Source: Bacteroidota bacterium
GTDB lineage: Bacteria > Bacteroidota > Bacteroidia > CAILMK01 > JACPUW01
Direction: 5' to 3'
DNA length: 64,000 bases
Assembly (NCBI GenBank): GCA_016192035.1
Contig: JACPUW010000041.1
Span: 81,235-145,234, forward strand
Shown here: piece by piece, positions 6,090-28,014 of the stretch
Position numbering within the stretch: position 1 is the stretch's first letter
Layout of the letters: each line of letters starts with the position of its first letter
The notes under the pieces: generated by a model
Database searches by the model: none
What the model was told of the DNA's origin: nothing
The model's input: the letters and a program-made list of their open reading frames with translations, nothing else
Position numbers and translations under genes: made by a program

Positions 6090-9000
6090 TCACCTCGCCA
6101 ATATCAATTTTAGCATGGACGATTGATTGCCCATTTCCACCTGCACAAAATACATTCCTGCCCTTAGGGTCTCAGCATTGTCTATCAATGGTATATCATG
6201 CGTTCCTGCCAATAGGTTGCCTTCCCAGGCCGTCCCTACTTGTTGGCCCAGTTCATTGAATACGGTCATGCGCACCCGCCCTTCCTGGGCCATCACTAGG
6301 GCCGCGCGTACCGCACGGTCAAATGGATTGGGGTAGAGGCTTATCATATTTTCGGCACCAGCCGTTTGGCCCAGGCTGGTATATACGTTCACCGATACCG
6401 AGCGCTCATGCACGCTGGCGCAAAAATTCTCGCTGAGTACCGTGAGCTTTACTAAGTAAGTGCCATTGGATGAGTAGGTGTGCCTGGGCTCCTGCAGCAC
6501 AGATGTGTTGCCGTCACCAAAGTCCCAATAATAGCTGGCATCGCCTAAATGCTTGGGTATAAACCTAAACTTGGCACCGGCCTGCTGTATAAACCCAAAA
6601 CTGCTGTCAGGATATGGGTAAATCTCAATAACCTTGTAGGCTGAATCCACACAGTCGCCCTCCCAGGCTATAAATCCTATGGGGAATTTCCCTGCCTTGC
6701 CATAGTATTTCACGGGTTCGCGCAGGTTGGAGCTACTTCCATCAAAGAACAACCACTTGTACGACAAGTTGCCATTGCTGGTAAGGTTTATAAACTGCAC
6801 TTTCTCCCGTGCGCAGGAATTGGCAAACTCAAAGTCCAGGTTTTTGGGGCCCACGGCCAGGTCAATGGTCTTGGCCGCACTGTCGGCGCAGTTGTCATTC
6901 CATGTGGTGTACACCACCTCATATATCCCAGTGCTGGCATACAGATGCTTGGTTCCCAATAAGCTATTGTTGGTATTACCGTCACCCAAGCGCCACTTGG
7001 CGCCCTTTAGCGCGCCTGGGCCGCTGGTGGCTTCAAAGTAGGTAGTATCGCCTAGGCAGCCACCGGTAAACTCAAAGGCCGGCTCTGGTTTGTCCAGAAG
7101 GGTAATGGTCTGCGTGAGAGAATCCATGCACCCGGCGTTGGATGTGGCCACCAGGGTTACATCATAGGCCCCGGCACTGTCAAAGGCGTATTTGCCTTGC
7201 ATGTCTGTTGATGTCAGTTCGCTGCCAAAGCGCCATAGGTAGGTAGCCGTGCCCTGTTTTAGGGTAGTTTGGTTTGTAAATACCACCGAGTCGCGCTGGC
7301 AACTTATGCTGGGCCAGCTAAAGGAAGCCACCGGTACCGACTCGAATTGTATCACTTTTTTGGCCGTATCCCAGCAATTATTTGAGGTGCTTACCTTGAG
7401 CCACCCGGTGGCAGTGCCACTGTTGCCATAGGTATGGCTGGGGTTGTTGGCCGTGCTGGTGTTGCCTAAACCAAAATCCCATAGCACGGTGGCAATACTG
7501 CCTGAGGGTGTGCTTTTATGGGTGAATGATACGGCTTGGTCAGGGCAGCTGGCCGTGTAACCAATTGCAGCTATGGGGTTTTCAAATATGGTGGCCAATA
7601 AAGTTGAGGAATCAGCACATCCTTTGTCGCTTATGGAAACAAGCTTTACCCAGTACGTGCCTGGAGCGGCATAGCCATGTTTGGGTTTTGCGCCTATTTG
7701 CTTGGTGCCGTCGCCCAGGTCCCAAAAGTGGGTCATGCTGCCGCTAGAAATGGTGCTCAAGTTATTGACCCTTAATTGGCTGGTGGCACAGGTGTCATAT
7801 ATGGCATAGGAGGCATTCGGCATGTCAAGCACCCTTATGGCATGAACGGCCAGGTCTGCACACCCTTTGTCGCTGGTGGCTTTAAGTTGGACACTGTAGT
7901 TGCCGGCCTGTGCATAAAGGTAGCTGGGGCTTGTTTGGGTGCTGCTAAAACCATCGCCAAAAGACCATAAGTAACTTATAGTACCACTGGCTATGGTGGT
8001 GGAGTTGGTAAATGTTACGGCAGTTCCCTCACAAACCGTATCGGCTACAAAGGCTGCCACGGGCATGGCGTACTGAGCCAGGTTTTTGGTGGTGGAGTCC
8101 ACGCATCCCTTGTCGCTGGTAGCCTGGAGTACCACGCGGTATGTGGCCGGTGCCCCGTAGGTATATATCGGCGAACTGCTGGTGGTTTTGTAGCCATTGC
8201 CCATAGACCATACGTAGTTCATCGGGCCGCCTCCACTTATGCTTGAATTGTTGGTAAACGAAACTGCGGTGCCCTGGCACCCGTCGGTAGCCGAAAATCC
8301 TGTAACAGGCTTTGGATACACCACCAGGCCTTGTTCAAAGGTGTCGCGGTTGCCTCCCTGCTGCAAAACGATAAGCCGTACCGTATATGTTCCGGCTGTT
8401 TTGTACTTGTATGTTGGATGCTGGCCCGTACTGGTCCCTCCATCGCCAAAATCCCAAACATAGCCCGTCACCGTACCGCAACTGGTGCTGCTTGTATTGG
8501 TAAACCGGGCAGTATCGCCAAGGCAAACATTGGAAACCGCAAAACCAGCCCGTATCACATTGTCAACCAAAATGCTCTTTGAAGACGAGTCGGCGCATGA
8601 TTTGTCGCTGGTAGCCACCAGTTTCACTGCATAGCTTCCTTTGGCCAGGTAGGTATGGGTGGGTGACTTTACCGTTGACTGGTTTCCATCACCAAAATCC
8701 CATTTCCATCCCGTAATACTGCCGGTTGAAATGGCGCTTCGGTTGGTAGGGGTAAAGTCATCACCAAGGCATATGTTGCTCACATCAAAATCAATAGTTG
8801 GTCGTGGCCACACGCCGGCACTGGTATAGGCTGTGTCGCGGCAGCCAGAATCTGACACGGTGATCAATGTTGCCTTGTAAAATCCGGCTATGTTGTATGT
8901 GTGTGTTGGTTGTGCTTGGGTGGCCGTGAAACCATCTCCAAAAGCCCAATCATAGCTGGCAATACTTCCGCTCGCCAAGCTTGTCAAGTTGGTGAATTGG

Positions 9001-12000
9001 TTTTCCAGGCCCTGGCATACGCTGTCGGCCAAGGCTTTGGCTATGGGGGCGGGGGAAACCCACAGGCCTCGGCTGATAGTGGCCACACACCCCAAGTTAG
9101 AAGTGGCCGTAAGCCGTACGGTATAGTTGCCAGCCGGATACGAATGTGTAGGGGCTTTTGAAGTACTGGTGGTCATATCTCCCAAGTCCCACGCATATGC
9201 CAAGGTGCCCGCCGTAATGGCACTGCCATTGGTGAACTGGACTGAATTGTATTCGCAATCAGCTATATAAGAGAATTTTACTTGCGGTAAATAATGAATA
9301 TCCAATCCGGTATATTCTAAGGAATCTGTACAGCCATGGTTGCTGGTAGCCACCAATTTTATAGTGTAGGGCCCTGGCGACGTATAGGCATGGCTGGGCA
9401 CTAGGCCACTGTACTTATTGCCATCCCCCATATGCCAGGTATAGTTTCCTATGCTCCCGCTGGTTATCGTGGACTTGTTTTTTACGCGCACCGCCGATTG
9501 GGCACAGGTATCATGGGCCGCAAAGGCTACCTGAGGGTTTGGGTAAATAACCACCGTTTTTATTAGGGTGTCTTTCCTGCCCGATTTTTCGGTTACCACC
9601 AGTTGCACATTATAGCTGCCGGCCTTGGTATATAGGTGGCTGGGGCTCAGTTGACTGGAGATGTTGCCATCGCCAAAGCTCCACTGATAGCTGCTTACCT
9701 TGCCGCATGAGGCATTGGTAGTGTTGGTAAATGAAACCTGGCTGCCTACACATACATTGCTAAAGGTAAATCCTGGAACCACCACGTTGTCAACCGTTAT
9801 GCTTGTTGTGGCCGTATCGCGACAGCCTTTATCACTGGTGGCCACCAGTGATATGTCATACTTGCCCTTGGCCATATAGTAGTGGAAAGGTGATGTGGCC
9901 GTGGAGCTATTTCCGTCCCCAAAATCCCAGGCATAACCACCTATGCTCCCGGTAGCTATAGAGCTTGTATTCAATGGGTACAAGGTGTCGCCAAAGCACA
10001 CGTTGCCGGCAGTAAACCCTGCTTGCGGCATGGGATATACCTGTATGTTCATAGTGGCAGTGTCCGTACAACCTGAATCGGTGCGCACTATTTGGCTTAT
10101 TAAATAAGTGCCAAAATTCTGGTACAGATGTTTGGGATTCATGGTGTTGTGTCCAAATCCATCGCCAAATTGCCATATATGGCCCATTACCTTGCCCGCA
10201 GCCACGCTTGACTGATCTACGAAAGACGCGCTATCGGCCAAACAGGTATTGGCCGAGGTGAATCCGGCGGTTGGCTTGTGGTGTACCACCCGCACCACTT
10301 TGTATTTTGACACGCACCCACTGTCGGTGGTGGTGGTGAGCACCACGGTATATGAACCGGGATTAATGTACCGGTGGATAGGGTCAGTAGCCACCGAAGT
10401 ATTTCCATCGCCCAATTTCCAAGTGCTTACGTAACTGCCAGAAGATAAAGTTGTTTTGTTGTCAAAGGCCATTGGCTGTCCCTCACAGGTATTATCGGCT
10501 ACAAACCGTGTGTTTGATACAGGGTTGATATACAGTTTTTTCGATTCGGTATCGGAGCAGCCCTGGGCTGAGGTGGCCGTGAGGCTTATGTTGTAGGTGC
10601 CGGTGGCCGAGTAGGTATTGCTTGGGTTGTTTGATGATGTTTTATTGCCATCACCAAAATCCCAGAGGTATGAAAGTGTGCCGCTGGCAATGGTTGAACT
10701 GTTCAGGAATACCGTCGTATCGCCCAGGCAGGTTTTGGCATGGGTAAAGCCCGCTACTGGGTTGGGGTGTACTTCCACGGTCTTTGTTAACCTTTCTTCG
10801 CAACCGTTGTTTGAGGTTGCTATCAAAAGCACGTCATAACTACCCGTAGTGGCATAGGTGTGGGTAGGCGAGGCAAGGGTGCTGGCCGATCCGTTGTCAA
10901 AATCCCACAAATAGCTAAGGCTGCCTGACGGTATGGACGAAGTATTGGAAAATGTAATTCCCTGGCCCAGACAGGCATCGGGAGCACTAAAGGCGGCACT
11001 TGGCGAATAGTACACCGATACGGATTGGGTGCTGCTGTCATTGCAGCCGCCGCTGCTGTAGGCCACCAATTTTACAGGGTATGTGCCAATTGCTGAGTAT
11101 AAGTGGCTGATTTGCTTACGGGTACTGGTGCTGCCATCGCCCAGGCTCCATTTATAGGTGAGCAAGCCAGAGGCTATGCTGGAATTATTTGTAAATAATA
11201 TACTGTCGTTCAGGCATTTGCCGCTTACGGTAAAGCTCGCCGTGGGCAGGTCATATACTTTTACCGTCTTCTCCACCGAGTCCTTGCAGCCGCTGGATGC
11301 CGTACTCACCAGTTTCACAGTGTAAGTACCTGTGCTGGAGTATATATGAGTAGGGCTGGTTAGGGTGCTTGTTTTGCCATCGCCAAAATACCAAAGGTGG
11401 GTCATAGAGCCTGAGGGTACCGATGAGCCATTGGCGTAATTGACAGTGGTGCCTCCACAAGCTGATGGCACGGTAAAGTTGGCAATGGGGGTGGGAAGCG
11501 CGCTCACCGATTTCTTTGCGGAGTCCACACAGCCTTTGTTGGAAGTGGCCACCAGGGTAACCGAATACGAACCAGGACTGGCATACAGGTGATTGGGGTT
11601 CACGGCGGTACTATTGGTTTTGTCGCCAAATCGCCATAGGTAGGAGAGGGTGCCGCTGCTTATGGTTGAGCTGTTGTTAAAAGATATGGCCACATTGGCA
11701 CACTGGTTGGCGGCGCTGAACCCCGGGACTGGCCGGGGGTGAATGGTTACCTGTTTGCTTGAAATACTGCTACATCCGCTGCCTGAGGTGGCTGTAAGCG
11801 TTACGGTGTAGGTGCCTGCCGAAGCATAGGTATAATTGGGGCTTGTTTGGGTGCTGCTAAATCCGTCGCCAAAAGACCAGGCGTAGCTCAGGCTGCCGCT
11901 TGATATGCTTGAATTGTTGCTAAAGGAAACGGAAGACCCCAAGCAAGCGTTGGAAACGCTAAAGCTCGATTTGGGCAACTCATAGATATCCAAACGTTTG

Positions 12001-15000
12001 GTGAGGGTGTCCTTACAACCAAAATTGGAAGTGGACACCAGGCGCACATCATAGGCCCCATGGGTGGCATAGGTATGGCTAGGAGCACTTTGTGAACTTT
12101 TGTTGCCATCGCCAAAATCCCATTGATAGGATGAAATAGACCCCGAACCAATTGAAGAGTTGTTGGTAAAGCTCATTTGCTTACCGGCGCAGGTATTGCT
12201 GGCGGTAAAATTTGATGAGGGATAGGGGTGGGCCACCACCTGCTTGGTAATGCTGTCTTTAACCCCACCTTGCTGATATACAACCAGTTTTACGTTGTAT
12301 GTACCAGCACTTGCGTATTTGTGCCGGGGATTTTCCCTGGCTGAATTGTTGCCGTCACCAAAATCCCAATAATACGATGTAACAGAGCCACAACTTATAT
12401 TGGTGGTATTCTGGAAAAGGGTAGAATCGCCCAGGCACTTTTCGGTAACAATATAATTGGGTGCCAGTTTGCTGTCCACTATCACAGGAATGGTCATGGA
12501 GTCCTTGCATCCCAAATTGCTGGTGGCGATAAGCCGTACATCAAAAGTGTCTTTTGTTAAATACTTGTGGAATGGGTGTTGTGCCGACGAGGTATTCCCG
12601 TCACCAAAGTGCCATGAGTAGCTGCTTATGCTGCCCGATTTGATGGAAGAATTGTTGACCGGATATAGGGTGCTGCCAAAACATACATTGCTTACATCAA
12701 AATCCACTTCAGGATTCACGTTTACCACTGCATTGGCCAGGGCGGTATCAGTACACCCATTGTTGGAGTACACCACAAAGCTTACGGGGTATGTATTGGC
12801 CGTATCATACAGGTGGGTAGGCGATTGGGCAGAGCTGGTAAAGCCATCGCCAAACACCCAGGCATAGGCCGTGAGGCTACCACTTGCTATACTGGTGCTG
12901 TGGTCAAACGTGGTAACAACACCTTCACAAACAGTGCTTACCGATATAGAAGTGGCAGGCTTGTCATAGACCTCCACCGTTTTGCCCAGGCTGTCGCGGC
13001 AACCTTTCACCGATTCAATCACCAGTTTCACCTGGAATGTGCCGCTAGTGGCGTACAGGTATTTGGGTTGTGCCTGGCTTGAACCATTTCCGTCACCAAA
13101 AGTCCAGGTATAGGTATCAATGGTATCAAGCTGGATAACACTGCTATTGGTAAATACTGCCGAGTCGCCCAAACACACATTGGCGGTGGCAAAGGCTGGC
13201 TGGGGTTTGCTAAACACGCCCTGGGGCCTGGTGGCCTGGCTGCTGCATCCATTGGTAAGTGAAGCGGTTAGCATCACGGTGTAGTTTCCTATGGCCCCAT
13301 AGAGGTAGGCTGGATTTGTAGATGTAGAGGTATTTCCATCGCCAAAGGACCAGGCATAACTTGGGGTAAATCCTAGTGGAATGGTAGAAGTGTTGGTAAA
13401 GTGCGTGCTGTCGCCCTTGCAGGTAAATACAGAAGAGAAGGAGGCCGTTGGTTGCGCTGAGATGACCACTGCTGAGGTGGCAGTGTCAGCGCAGCCCTCG
13501 CTGCTGGTAGATACCAGCACTACATCATAAGTCCCTGTGATGGCGAATGTATGTTTTGGATGCCTGCGGGTGGACGTGCTGCCGTTGTCAAAATCCCAGA
13601 GGAAACTGGCTCCGGTGGCCGTGGCTATGCTCGAAGTATTGGTGAAGGTGGTAGAATCACCATGACAAAGCTTGGACACCGTCAATGATGCCAATGGCTT
13701 GGTGTTTAAGGTGATAGATGTGGTTGTGGAGTCTTTGCACCCGCTTGCCGCCGTTACCACAAGTTTCACGCTATACACCCCACTGGTGGAGTATTGGGTC
13801 TTGGGATTGGTGAGGGTAGATGTTTTTCCATTGCCAAAAGTCCATTTCCAGTTACTTATGGTAGAGCTTGTTATGGTTGAACCATCGGTAAAAGTGATGT
13901 CTTCGCCGGTGCAGGCGCCACTGACCGAAAAGGCCGCTTGGGGAAACTCATAGGAATGGATGGTGGCGTATGCCGTGTCGTTGTTGCGGGTAGAATCGTT
14001 CGGCAGGTCGGTCCAGGTTTTCAATTGGTAAGCCGTATAGGCCGTCAAATTGGCCCTGGTAGCGAAAGTGAATGCTATAGTGGCATTTGACAACAGTGCC
14101 GAGGAGAGTATAAAAGTGTCATTTACCTCGGTTCCGCTGCCAATTATGTAGCTTACTGGTATGAGTTCGCCCGTAGGCACTGTTTTGTTTCCCAGGTTTT
14201 TAACTAGAATTTGAACCTGCTCAACCGATGTGCGCTCGCAGCCCGTGCTGGGTGAGAGTATGGCGCTTACGCCCAGGTCGTATAGATCGGAGTATTCGTC
14301 GGCTCCCACGTCAGGGGTTAGTGGGTTGCGTATGTCGCCCTCATAGTCGGTGGTGATGCCAGTGGTTGCGGCACCCCAATTGGACAATTGCTTGGATGTG
14401 GGGGCTATGGTGAGGTCGGTGGCCGAACGATAACCGGGATCACCTTCCTTCGAATCCCTGTTTATGCCGTTCATTCCAGATTTCCAACTGCTCAGACTGC
14501 CGTAAGTTGTGCCGTTATATACCACAAAGTTGTTGCTCGTGCCCTTGTAGTAATTGTTGAAATCCAATGCCGTAAACGAGGCGGTTAGGGAATTGAACAG
14601 GTCGGCAGAGGTGGATTTGGCCAGTGAATTATTGCGAAAATCATATCCGTTGCCATACCTGAACCGTACTACCGATCCACTATTGCCTTTGTTCATATTC
14701 AGGCTGTTGTGTAGTACTTTTATGTTGTAACTATAATAAATATCCAAACCATAATTGTCCGATGAGGTCATTTGGTCGCTTATCAGGTTATTGGCTATGG
14801 TGGACGACTCTTCTTCAAAATAATAGTTTTCATACAGCATGTACACGCCTTCCATACCAGATTTTATGACATTTGAAACCAAATTGGTTTGGCTGGAGAG
14901 GTATATGAAAAGTTGATAATACTCAAGTCTAAGGGAATCAAATTGGCATTGCTCTATGCGCAGGCCGCCCTGGTAAATGGCATATATGCCATATACCCGT

Positions 15001-23537: not shown

Positions 23538-24301
23538 AGATTGCTGCCGTTCAGTACGATATTGCTTGGAAGGACAAGGTGTTCAATAAGAGCTACCTCC
23601 AGGATATTTTCCAGTCTTTGGAACACAAAGGGTACCATCTGGTAATCCTTCCCGAGATGTTTGCTACAGGCTTTTGTTTTGATTTGTCGCTGGCAGAGGA
23701 TTTTAGCGACAGCCCCACCATAGCATGGATGAAAGAGTGGGCAGGCAAAATTGGTGCGCACCTGGTTGGAAGCGTTATGGTGAGGCAGGATGGGGCTTTT
23801 TACAACCGTTTGGTTTGGGTGGACGAAAAAGGGGGGGTACAATACTATGATAAGCGCCATCTTTTTAGCTTGTCGGCCGAGCCTGAACATTTTACCCCTG
23901 GCAAAGAGAAACTGGTTGTGCAGCTCAATGATTGGCGCATCTGCCCTATGATTTGCTATGACTTGCGGTTTCCGGTATGGATACGAAATAGGGAAAACTA
24001 TGATCTACTGATTTTTATAGCCAATTGGCCTGAGCGGCGCATCAATCACTGGGAATGCCTGCTAAAAGCCAGGGCTATAGAAAACCAGTGCTATGTGGTG
24101 GGGGCCAATCGAGTAGGCTTTGATGGTGAGGGGGTATATCACGATGGGCGGAGCGCAGTAATCGACCCCTGGGGCAATACGCTGGTCCAGGCCGCCCACA
24201 GTGCCCACGTGCTGGAACAAACCTTAGACCTGGGAATAGTAGAGAGGGCCAGGGCACAACTGCCTTTTTTGCGCGATATGGACAGGTTTGAGATGGAATA
24301 A
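23525..24301 (+). CDS. Nitrilase-superfamily amidohydrolase (omega-amidase-like)
   Basis: Catalytic E (VILPEMFATGF), K (YYDKRHLF), C (PMICYDLRFPVW). Confidence 0.9.
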   Translation: MRDIKIAAVQYDIAWKDKVFNKSYLQDIFQSLEHKGYHLVILPEMFATGFCFDLSLAEDFSDSPTIAWMKEWAGKIGAHLVGSVMVRQDGAFYNRLVWVDEKGGVQYYDKRHLFSLSAEPEHFTPGKEKLVVQLNDWRICPMICYDLRFPVWIRNRENYDLLIFIANWPERRINHWECLLKARAIENQCYVVGANRVGFDGEGVYHDGRSAVIDPWGNTLVQAAHSAHVLEQTLDLGIVERARAQLPFLRDMDRFEME

Positions 24302-24673
24302 TTCAAACAAAGGCAAGGAAGGGCTGGGTTTCGCCCGGTGTTTGACAGTATTTCTCCCCATTAGATAAAATAGTCCTGTGCGCCGCGCAATGGATTGATG
24401 GCCTGTTGTCAATCTAGGGCGCATGTTTTTACCCTCGAAGCATATATTTGTTGTCAATTCAATACTGGAAATGGTATATTATGAGCCATATATGGCAGGA
24501 AAGCAGCAATGCCTAGTAATGGGCAAACGGAGAAACTTTAGTGCCATGTTATTTCTGGGCCAAGCCAAGATTCAATGTTATTTTATAATTGAATTAAATG
24601 AAGTAGCAGGAAGGGTTTTGCCTGTATTTCAAGGAAAAAGTCAGTTTTATGTAAGGAGATAAATATAGTTAAA

Positions 24674-25894
24674 ATGAGCAGGTTGTACATTAAGAATTTT
24701 GGCCCTATCAAAGAGGGTTACAAAGAAGGAATTGAGATTAAGAAGGTAAGTGTATTTATTGGAAATCAAGGGTCTGGTAAAAGCACTCTTGCTAAGGTAA
24801 TTTCATCTCTGATGTGGTTAGAAAAAGCAATAAATAGAGGGGATGTGGATAAGGGGGATATAACATTTAGGAAATTTCATGATATTTTTGATTATCAAAG
24901 AATTAGTAATTACTTTAAAAAGGACACGGAAATTGAGTATATAGGCAAAAGGGTTAGAATTATGTACAATAGAAAGACCCAAGAATATCCCATAATCGAG
25001 CTAATAGATGGCCATGACTACCAAGTACCCAAGATTATGTATATGCCTTCAGAAAGAAATTTACTGAGTACCATTGAAAATGCATTTGGGCTTAAGAATC
25101 TTCCAGATAACCTCCATGATTTTGCAGAGGAAATGCGCAGGGGACAGTTAGAACTCAAGGAAAATTTGCTTGAATTGCCTATAGGAAATGTTCGGTATAG
25201 GTTTGACAAAGAAACAGGATCGTCGTTTATAGTAGGAAATGACTTTGAATTAGACCTTTTGGAATCATCGAGTGGTTTTCAATCATTGGTGCCGATGTAC
25301 CTTGTAGCTAAATTTCTTACAAATGAACTTGGAAAGGATGCCGATATACTGCGGGAGCAACTAAATGTAGAACAATCTGTTAGGAGAAATCGGGAGATCG
25401 CCGCAATTATGTTTAGTAGTTTGTTGACTTCAGATGAAAAAAATATAAAAGTTGAAGAGATTGATAAGAGATACTTGAACACATCTTTTGTTAACATAGT
25501 AGAGGAACCTGAACAAAATTTGTATCCCACTTCACAGCAACAAGTTCTTTATCGTCTGTTGGAGTTAAATAACATGAACATAAACAATAAGTTGCTTATA
25601 ACAACCCACAGTCCGTACATGATAAATTTCTTGACTTTGGCTGTAGAAGCCAATGGGGTAAAGGCTAAACCGCTTAATGACAAACAAAAGGGTAAACTGA
25701 ATGCCATAGTTCCACTGAATGTAACCATTGATCCAAAAGAATTGGTGGTTTATGAGTTAGATGAAAGAAATGGCTCCATTTCAAAACTGGATGACTACCA
25801 CGGTTTACCATCAGATGGCAATAAGTTAAATCATGAACTTTCAGCAGGTAATGATGCATTTATTGAGCTTCTAGAATTACAGAGAGGGCTATGA
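24674..25894 (+). CDS. AAA/ABC-type ATPase (OLD/RecF-like, no TOPRIM evident)
   Basis: Walker A FIGNQGSGKSTLAKV, signature-like LESSSGFQSL, Walker B FVNIVEEPEQNLYP, H-loop LLITTHSPYMINFL. Confidence 0.9.
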   Translation: MSRLYIKNFGPIKEGYKEGIEIKKVSVFIGNQGSGKSTLAKVISSLMWLEKAINRGDVDKGDITFRKFHDIFDYQRISNYFKKDTEIEYIGKRVRIMYNRKTQEYPIIELIDGHDYQVPKIMYMPSERNLLSTIENAFGLKNLPDNLHDFAEEMRRGQLELKENLLELPIGNVRYRFDKETGSSFIVGNDFELDLLESSSGFQSLVPMYLVAKFLTNELGKDADILREQLNVEQSVRRNREIAAIMFSSLLTSDEKNIKVEEIDKRYLNTSFVNIVEEPEQNLYPTSQQQVLYRLLELNNMNINNKLLITTHSPYMINFLTLAVEANGVKAKPLNDKQKGKLNAIVPLNVTIDPKELVVYELDERNGSISKLDDYHGLPSDGNKLNHELSAGNDAFIELLELQRGL

Positions 25895-26394
25895 ATATCG
25901 ATTTTAATGTAAGTCAATGTCAATGCCAAACAGATAAGGCGAGGTTTGGCCTATGTGATACCCCATCACATGCGAAAACCCCAGCATACCTTGATGAAGT
26001 AGATGCTTCTAATTGGATTGCCATTGTGGATAACAAGATGAAATACCTTGTAACTTTTACAGCGATAGATCACTGCATTGACATGAAAAGGCAGAATGGT
26101 AAAATGCTTGAACGGTGCGATTGCATGTTGACATACTGCTCAACAGTAATTCTCGTGGAGCTAAAAAAACAAAGGAAAAAGGGGAATGCTTGGGTGAAAA
26201 AAGCTGATTCTCAACTTAGGAATACGATAAAATATTTTGAACGAAGTCAATCGAATTTATATACGGAGAAACGGGCTTATATTGCTAACAGCGAGAAACC
26301 TATGTTTAAGGATAGTCAAATGGAGCGGATGAAGAGATTTTATGAAGAAACTGGTTATATACTAAAAATAAAAGCTGAAATAGAGCTTTCTTGA
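25891..26394 (+). CDS. Small PD-(D/E)XK-like protein coupled to the upstream ATPase
   Basis: ATGA overlap with the ATPase stop; core ERCDCMLTYCSTVILVELKKQRKKGNAWVKKADSQLRNTIKYF fits D-x(12)-E-x-K...Q. Confidence 0.6.
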   Translation: MNIDFNVSQCQCQTDKARFGLCDTPSHAKTPAYLDEVDASNWIAIVDNKMKYLVTFTAIDHCIDMKRQNGKMLERCDCMLTYCSTVILVELKKQRKKGNAWVKKADSQLRNTIKYFERSQSNLYTEKRAYIANSEKPMFKDSQMERMKRFYEETGYILKIKAEIELS

Positions 26395-26462
26395 CCAAAT
26401 TCCGTTGCAGGCTGATTTTGGGGTAAATCTTACCATTAGATTCGCAATGGAATAAAAATCAA

Positions 26463-27320
26463 TTAGATACTAAGGCCAAGCCTGCCAAGCACCTCGGCTA
26501 TAAATGAGTCCATCCTTGAGAACGCAAACCATTTTTTGCCCAGGTCTTTGAGTGATGCCCCCAAGTGGTAAAGCTCCTTTTGGTCAATGATCAAAAAGCG
26601 GTCGTGGCTGTGGGCAAAGGCCTTGGCAACTATGGGCGGGTATTGGCCGTGGTGCCGGTCCAGGTCTAGCTGGACTTGTCTGGAAATGGACTTTGTGAAG
26701 ATGGTGGCGGTAACCTCACTGTTTCGCTTGGCGAGCAGGGTTAGCACGGTTTCGTCCACATAGTTGTCTATGAGTATAATGTCATGCTTAGCCCGTTTAA
26801 CAATTTCTGCCGCAAACACGTAGGCATCAAATACCTGTCCTTCAAAGAAAACCCCCTGGTTGGGCAGCGCTTGTGTGTTGAGTTGCAACGAAATCTCTTT
26901 CACTTCTTTGCTCAGGTTTTCAACGTGGTTTTCCATCCTGTCCATCCGTTGGTTTAGGGCGTATCCCTTGAGCAGATAGTCGCGCAGCACCTGGGTAGCC
27001 CATATGCGGAACTGTGTGCCTTGCTTGGAGTTTACTCGGTAACCTACTGAAATAATGGCATCTAGGTTATAGTATTCAATTTCTCTATTAACTGTCCTAC
27101 CTGCTTCCATTTGAACTGTTGCATTTTTTGCAACTGTTGCTTCTTGGCTGAGTTCGCCTTCAGTGTAAATATTTCTTAAGTGCCTTGATATTACCGATTT
27201 ATCCCTATTGAATAATTGAGATATCTGCTTTAGTGTAAGCCAAACGGTTTCGTCTTCAAGCCTTACCTCTATGTGTTGGGCTACTTCATCGGGCTTGTAG
27301 AGAATGATTTCGTTTTTCAT
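26463..27320 (-). CDS. RhuM-like DNA-binding protein fused to a C-terminal PLD-like domain
   Basis: VWLTLKQISQLFNRDKSVISRHLRNIYTEGEL...REIEYYNLDAIISVGYRVNSKQGTQFRIWATQVLRDYLLKGYALNQ is RhuM-like; C-terminal HDIILIDNYVDETVLTLL...SHDRFLIIDQKELYHLGASLKDLGKKWFAF is PLD-like. Confidence 0.85.
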   Translation of the reverse strand: MKNEIILYKPDEVAQHIEVRLEDETVWLTLKQISQLFNRDKSVISRHLRNIYTEGELSQEATVAKNATVQMEAGRTVNREIEYYNLDAIISVGYRVNSKQGTQFRIWATQVLRDYLLKGYALNQRMDRMENHVENLSKEVKEISLQLNTQALPNQGVFFEGQVFDAYVFAAEIVKRAKHDIILIDNYVDETVLTLLAKRNSEVTATIFTKSISRQVQLDLDRHHGQYPPIVAKAFAHSHDRFLIIDQKELYHLGASLKDLGKKWFAFSRMDSFIAEVLGRLGLSI

Positions 27321-27561
27321 GGGGCATTGGTTTTTGTATTGTCACTATCAGGTATATAGAGAAATGGGTATTGGTATTGCCACGGGTTTATCTGTGTGGT
27401 GTTTTAACAAAAGTACACAACATGCACCATAGGCCGCAGGGAAGTGCTTGGGGGCTACAGTAAATATTGATATATAAATCAATTTTACCTAGCTTGAAAT
27501 CAATAAATTGAATCCGAAATATTTCACGCCTTCACAGGTCGTTTTATAGTAAAAAAATCAA

Positions 27562-28014
27562 TTAACCCATCACCTGTATGTGGTGTGTTTTTGCCTTCAC
27601 CGAGTCTATTACCTTGGATATTATCCCGTTTTCATCAATCACAAAAGTTGTCCTTTTGGTGTCCATGTACTTGCGCCCGTACATGCTCTTCTCGCCCCAA
27701 ACCCCGTATGACTCGTGCATGGCCCGGTCAGTGTCCACCAACAATTTATAGGGCAGTTGGTGTTTTAAAGCAAAACCACCGTGTGACTTGGCTGAATCCG
27801 TGCTAACCCCCAGTACTGCATATCCTGCCTGGCGCAGTTCGTCATAGTGATCGCGCAGGTTGCAGGCCTCGGCAGTACAGGTGGGGGTGTTGTCTTTTGG
27901 GTAAAAGAACAAAACAAGTTTTCTTCCTTTATAGTCGTTCAGTTTGTGCGTTTTGCCGTCTTGGTCTAACGAGGAAAAGGCGGGTGCGGCTTGGCCACTA
28001 ATGGGCATGGTCAT
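27562..28014 (-). CDS. bcp: Thioredoxin-dependent thiol peroxidase / Bcp peroxiredoxin
   Basis: KLVLFFYPKDNTPTCTAEACNLRDHYDEL...GVSTDSAKSHGGFALKHQLPYKLLVDTD. Confidence 0.95.
   Translation of the reverse strand: MTMPISGQAAPAFSSLDQDGKTHKLNDYKGRKLVLFFYPKDNTPTCTAEACNLRDHYDELRQAGYAVLGVSTDSAKSHGGFALKHQLPYKLLVDTDRAMHESYGVWGEKSMYGRKYMDTKRTTFVIDENGIISKVIDSVKAKTHHIQVMG

Follow-up and report, generated by a model that had tools for sequence, protein, structure and literature searches.

Septu and the retron-linked PtuAB combine an ATPase, PtuA, with a small nuclease, PtuB, which is of the HNH type. In Gabija, a single chain, GajA, combines the ABC ATPase with a TOPRIM domain. RloA-RloB, RloF, TgvAB and PrrC are encoded between hsdS and hsdR of type I restriction operons, TgvAB being GmrSD-like and PrrC a single protein. 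TgvAB, a two-gene defence system in such a slot, was tested in Vibrio (PMC11411939). PARIS consists of a small ABC ATPase without a long coiled coil, AriA, followed by a small effector, AriB, which is a TOPRIM/OLD nuclease (PMC11455837, PMC12409363); AriB is held by AriA and set free when AriA senses Ocr (PMC11455837).

The locus studied here lies in the window, by which is meant the whole 64,000-nucleotide stretch of Bacteroidota DNA that was analysed, and consists of two genes, A and B (Table 1). The preliminary description had reported two ORFs at 24674-26394 with an ATGA overlap, proposed as an undescribed defence system. The ORFs were recovered with the coordinates and lengths claimed, and the stop of A overlapped the start of B by 4 bp, but the pair was not undescribed: a PADLOC run matched both genes at full length to the phage-defence candidate PDC-M29 (models PDLC04562-04564), with identical gene order. 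A matched PDC-M29A (E 5.3e-145), its residues 1-404 aligning with positions 1-408 of a model of 410, and B matched PDC-M29B (E 9.7e-60), its residues 1-166 aligning with positions 1-163 of a model of 164. The A-B pair is a member of PDC-M29. The PADLOC entry is a computational candidate without mechanism or test, and a literature search under that name found no paper naming or characterising it; the pair is catalogued already, yet uncharacterised as far as could be found.

The next named ATPase models for A were far weaker (AriA, E 1e-17, PADLOC). With PARIS the pair shared a gene order in which a small effector comes after a small ABC ATPase lacking a long coiled coil, the matches of A to AriA models (E 1e-17, against 5e-145 for PDC-M29A) and a link to restriction; it differed in B, which has a PD-(D/E)XK motif and matched no AriB model. 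An AriB-type DUF4435/TOPRIM domain was absent from B (Pfam; PADLOC at E up to 1 gave PDC-M29B models only). With Septu and the retron-linked PtuAB it shared the combination of ATPase and small nuclease, PtuA being the top structural neighbour of A, but the motif of B is of another kind and B gave no PtuB or HNH match (Pfam, PADLOC). The type I restriction operon slot of RloA-RloB, RloF, TgvAB and PrrC was shared in 7 relatives, and the pair differed from RloAB in that Pfam, searched at E up to 1, gave B no RloB-like match. Gabija has the ABC ATPase head in common with the pair, but A (406 aa) ends after the ATPase and matched GajA models over the ATPase core only, and no UvrD-like GajB lay beside A at the window locus.

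Table 1. Features of the A-B locus and its insertion site (positions in the window)
Feature	Position	Strand	Basis
Gene A, 406-aa ABC/SMC-type ATPase, PDC-M29A, presumed sensor/regulator	24674..25894	+	PADLOC, Pfam, AF2, Foldseek
Walker A GNQGSGKS, residues 30-37	24761..24784	+	G30, G35, K36, S37 invariant in 17 and 64 aligned relatives
Variable middle of A, residues 51-270, presumed sensing module	24824..25483	+	Exchanged independently of B (distances, conflicting splits)
ABC signature-like SSGFQS, residues 199-204	25268..25285	+	S200, G201, S204 invariant (17 and 64 relatives)
Walker B/D-loop NIVEEPEQNL, residues 274-283	25493..25522	+	E277, E278, E280, N282, L283 invariant (17 and 64 relatives)
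H-loop TTHSPY, residues 310-315	25601..25618	+	H312, S313, P314 invariant (17 and 64 relatives)
C-terminal tail of A, residues 320-406, presumed B docking part	25631..25891	+	Correlates with B; tree largely agrees with B tree
Gene B, 167-aa PD-(D/E)XK-like protein, PDC-M29B, presumed nuclease effector	25891..26394	+	PADLOC, AF2
Predicted catalytic D77 and E90-x-K92 of B	26119..26166	+	D/E77, E90, K92 in 88/88; AF2 topology
Inserted stretch (A, B, RhuM) between nitrilase and bcp	24302..27561		Empty site in same-genus genome
ATGGAATAA at nitrilase stop; second copy after B	24293..24301; 26447-26455		Only two copies in 64 kb
ATGGAATAA joined to AAATCAATTA, between A-B unit and RhuM unit	26447..26465		Looks like former nitrilase-bcp junction

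Predicted ATPase and nuclease

A is by sequence an ABC-type ATPase. Across 64 relatives, Walker A, signature, Walker B, D-loop and H-loop varied little or not at all, the Pfam families matched were AAA_15/AAA_21, and no TOPRIM domain was detected by domain and motif searches; A had been described as having complete ABC motifs and no TOPRIM-like tail, and motif and domain inspection agreed. The AlphaFold2 model of A (pLDDT 90.4) was without a long coiled coil. Foldseek placed PtuA of Septu and retrons nearest to it (E 4e-9), followed by the heads of Rad50 and SMC.

In an alignment of 88 B proteins (<90% identity), C76, E90 and K92 were invariant (88/88), and position 77 was D in 72 and E in 16. 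D60 was slightly less strict (87/88), and Q108 was present in 77/88, with K in 10. The motif D-x12-ExK...Q, first noticed in the window copy, is accordingly real, with core residues conserved far from chance. In the AlphaFold2 model of B (pLDDT 92.9), D77 stood just ahead of strand 78-82 and E90 and K92 at the end of strand 85-92, followed by helix 100-117 with Q108 and by strand 126-133. Such placing of D, ExK and Q on strands and helix is usual for PD-(D/E)XK folds. The top Foldseek matches of B were Can2 (probability 0.75), BspD6I, Cdn1, Mus81/XPF, RecU, Hjc and other PD-(D/E)XK enzymes, at E 0.2 or worse; none had E <0.001, and clamp-loader subunits were also present. The earlier proposal of a PD-(D/E)XK-like protein was supported by the invariant motif, the confident model and the core topology, but not by any fold match reaching E 0.001, and the assignment is made from motif, topology and the make-up of the weak fold matches taken together. 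On these grounds B is very probably a metal-dependent PD-(D/E)XK nuclease.

No Pfam, NCBIfam or PHROGs family matched B above cut-off or noise, and a sequence search of solved structures with B gave no match. Identity of B as PIN_12 (E 0.12) was dropped, the conserved residues following the PD-(D/E)XK pattern. Three cysteines of B were nearly invariant (C10 and C62, each 85/88; C76, 88/88; window 25918-26118), possibly forming a metal or redox site.

Gene pairing, insertion and restriction operons

B was carried by 29/396 genomes of the phylum, with A directly upstream wherever readable, usually with a 4-bp overlap. A profile scan with A over 84,980 species genomes found 365 relatives; these were ranked by A match and the best 80 examined. 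Nearly all of these 80 were from Bacteroidota, some from Chlorobiota and one from Thermodesulfobacteriota. In 79 of these best 80 loci B, whole or as a remnant, came next after A, so that the adjacency for which a survey of homologues had been proposed was found to be kept, and the junction was mostly ATGA or a 10-bp overlap. By sequence, A and B are translationally coupled, and they stay together in the genomes compared. One locus had no trace of B (L089), and in another the contig edge lay just inside B (L104). B was present as pieces only in L046 and L108, and was broken by a frameshift or stop, with A intact, in L079, L064, L082 and L080. Breakage of B with A intact hints that B is costly, in a count biased by the ranking of loci by A. 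Natural A-B fusions were not found among the loci examined (best 80 of 365). Viral contigs and phage records held no close relative, and plasmid records held 3 matches in 72,556. Values of dN/dS were mostly about 0.04-0.25 in comparisons of A and of B, by which both genes are under purifying selection. Second, distant pairs of ATPase and small protein, matching PDC-M29 weakly, occurred in L111 (11992-13549), in tandem with a standard PDC-M29 pair, and in L089 (5826-7605), which suggests a wider family beyond PDC-M29.

The pair had been described as AT-richer than a flanking nitrilase and bcp. The contrast was confirmed (G+C 0.358 for A and 0.367 for B, about 36%, vs 0.494 for nitrilase, 0.492 for bcp and 0.478, or 48%, for the whole window), but the flanks were partly misplaced: the nearest neighbour of B is a RhuM-family gene (26463-27320, minus strand), and bcp begins only at 27562. 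In a same-genus genome (G396, locus L134), the nitrilase-bcp gap was about 30 bp, the remaining gene order was kept and the insert was absent; G396 (81% complete) gave no match to PDC-M29A. AAATCAATTA was found at the bcp stop (27555-27564) and had two copies in the 64 kb. These repeats are read most simply as the trace of two adjacent insertion events, 9-10 bp being duplicated in each. Neither a transposase nor inverted ends were seen at the inserted units, and the spacer behind B had no second copy elsewhere in the window genome. Two relatives (L049 and L053) matched each other over a stretch that begins about 100 nt ahead of A and ends at the stop of B, and were unrelated outside it; the mobile unit is therefore A, B and the promoter region only. 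The RhuM-family gene was itself a near full-length match to the PADLOC candidate PDC-S05 (E 2.6e-122). It was dropped as a third component, being present in the flanks of only 2/80 relatives, and appears to be a separate unit.

In 7 loci (L037, L047, L054, L077, L100, L103, L106) the order was hsdM, hsdS, extra genes where present, A, B, hsdR, with 0-3 nt between B and hsdR and a 1-nt overlap in one case; the R proteins had HSDR_N and helicase domains. These loci were scattered over the A tree, the 7 rows needing 6 changes, all forced by well-supported branches. Placement in a restriction operon was limited to 7/80 loci; the window copy lies outside any restriction operon, and a type I restriction R gene of its genome is on another contig. 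Other defence genes near PDC-M29 copies matched ShosA-like, MADS and Psyr models. The defence setting first assigned to the pair is thus borne out in relatives, by type I restriction operons and by nearby defence genes.

The hsd slot also housed other accessory genes in some operons. A conserved 151-153-aa protein stood just before A in three of them (L037 9505-9966, L047 9523-9978, L100 9521-9976); it has a PD-(D/E)XK-like motif, GVDI...VEVKG, and no Pfam match in the two copies scanned. It was considered as a relative of B and rejected, having no profile similarity to B. A 146-aa protein between hsdS and A (L077 9529-9969, L054 1996-2436) reads like a macro domain (FVKGNLFES...ALVNAVN). In L083, caspase and FGE-sulfatase-type proteins flanked the PDC-M29 pair on both sides (8330-9937 and 11758-13506).

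Module exchange within A

Distances of A and of B agreed poorly (r 0.37). B was 80% alike and A 46% alike between L100 and L075, and A was 72% alike and B 32% alike between L103 and L077. A block-by-block comparison placed a breakpoint inside A. Over 67 loci, B correlated at r about 0.12 with the middle of A (61-265) and at r 0.52 with the tail (341-406); between middle and tail r was 0.04. In the tree of the middle (51-270), 24/32 strong splits were contradicted by strong splits of the B tree, against 3/24 between the two halves of the middle and 4/16 between the two halves of B as controls; between the tail (320-406) and B, 3/17 strong splits were contradicted. For L049 compared with its recent relatives L050, L053 and L056, dS was 1.5-3.0 in the middle, whereas it was about 0.45-0.48 for the tail and 0.35-0.39 for B. 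Comparative sequence evidence thus has the middle of A swapped between systems and the tail of A staying with B, and from distances, conflicting splits and dS together the middle appears to be replaced via the conserved blocks on either side. The exchange makes the middle of A a probable sensor. Positive selection was not seen in this presumed sensor part; dN/dS was low, and diversity therefore seems to arise by exchange.

Proposed mechanism and alternatives

A defence role for A-B is highly likely, and control of B by A, by analogy with PARIS, is likely. The main reading, to which a probability of about 0.55 is given, is that A-B would be a two-gene, horizontally moving, PARIS/Septu-like sensor-effector defence unit of ABC ATPase and nuclease with a release mechanism. 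As an ATP-bound oligomer, A would use its C-terminal tail to keep B inactive, and an infection signal would be recognised by the swappable middle. ATP turnover or signal binding would then alter A so that B is released or activated, and B would cut nucleic acid and stop phage growth, probably by abortive infection. In some copies the signal might be interference with restriction, as in PARIS with Ocr. This last idea comes from the repeated placement of A-B inside type I restriction operons; in at least some copies the trigger may be an anti-restriction protein or an Hsd complex that has been disturbed, although this is less likely than not.

The holding and release of B by A is modelled on PARIS, and A could instead load B onto DNA. 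A would in that case be an SMC/Rad50-like DNA-sensing loader bringing the nuclease to phage or plasmid DNA, and not an antitoxin that releases a toxin; loader-type action has been proposed for Septu, Lamassu or Wadjet. PtuA, Rad50 and SMC heads as fold neighbours of A, the predominance of DNA nucleases and nickases among those of B, and the physical link to DNA-restriction genes all agree with direct DNA targeting, but the model of A has no long coiled coil, and the six loci with B broken and A intact (in a count biased by the choice of loci by A) fit a costly effector. Direct DNA targeting is considered unlikely.

A toxin-antitoxin or anti-plasmid maintenance module that has no phage-specific function, with A as antitoxin and B as addictive nuclease, would likewise account for the overlapping genes, the mobile unit in unrelated surroundings and the broken copies of B. 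Large ABC ATPases are, however, rare as antitoxins of such modules, the swappable middle of A and the restriction-operon placement point to recognition of changing foreign signals, and matches in plasmid records were few; this alternative is improbable. A housekeeping repair pair of a RecF/Rad50-like ATPase and a small nuclease, which would agree with the resemblance of A to Rad50 and of B to RecU/Hjc/Mus81, is very improbable given the patchy spread in the phylum, the horizontal insertion and the defence neighbours.

The sensor-effector unit with release of B may extend to a more specific picture, held at slightly below even odds. PDC-M29 would be a modular immune receptor in which an ATPase recognition cassette (about residues 51-270) is recombined through the conserved ATP-binding blocks, with tail and B as the matched effector half, and with the hsdS-hsdR slot as one niche, in which it would guard restriction.

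What is new here is the evidence on the effector, the genomic niche and the modular evolution of PDC-M29. A named but uncharacterised candidate gains a testable mechanism, with predicted catalytic residues, a candidate recognition part of A and a candidate nuclease-holding part, and type I restriction is where to look for its trigger. To our knowledge, which part of ABC-ATPase immune proteins determines specificity is still an open question for the whole class. If the middle of A is exchanged because it senses, chimeras of relatives would reveal the part of an ABC-ATPase immune protein that sets phage specificity.
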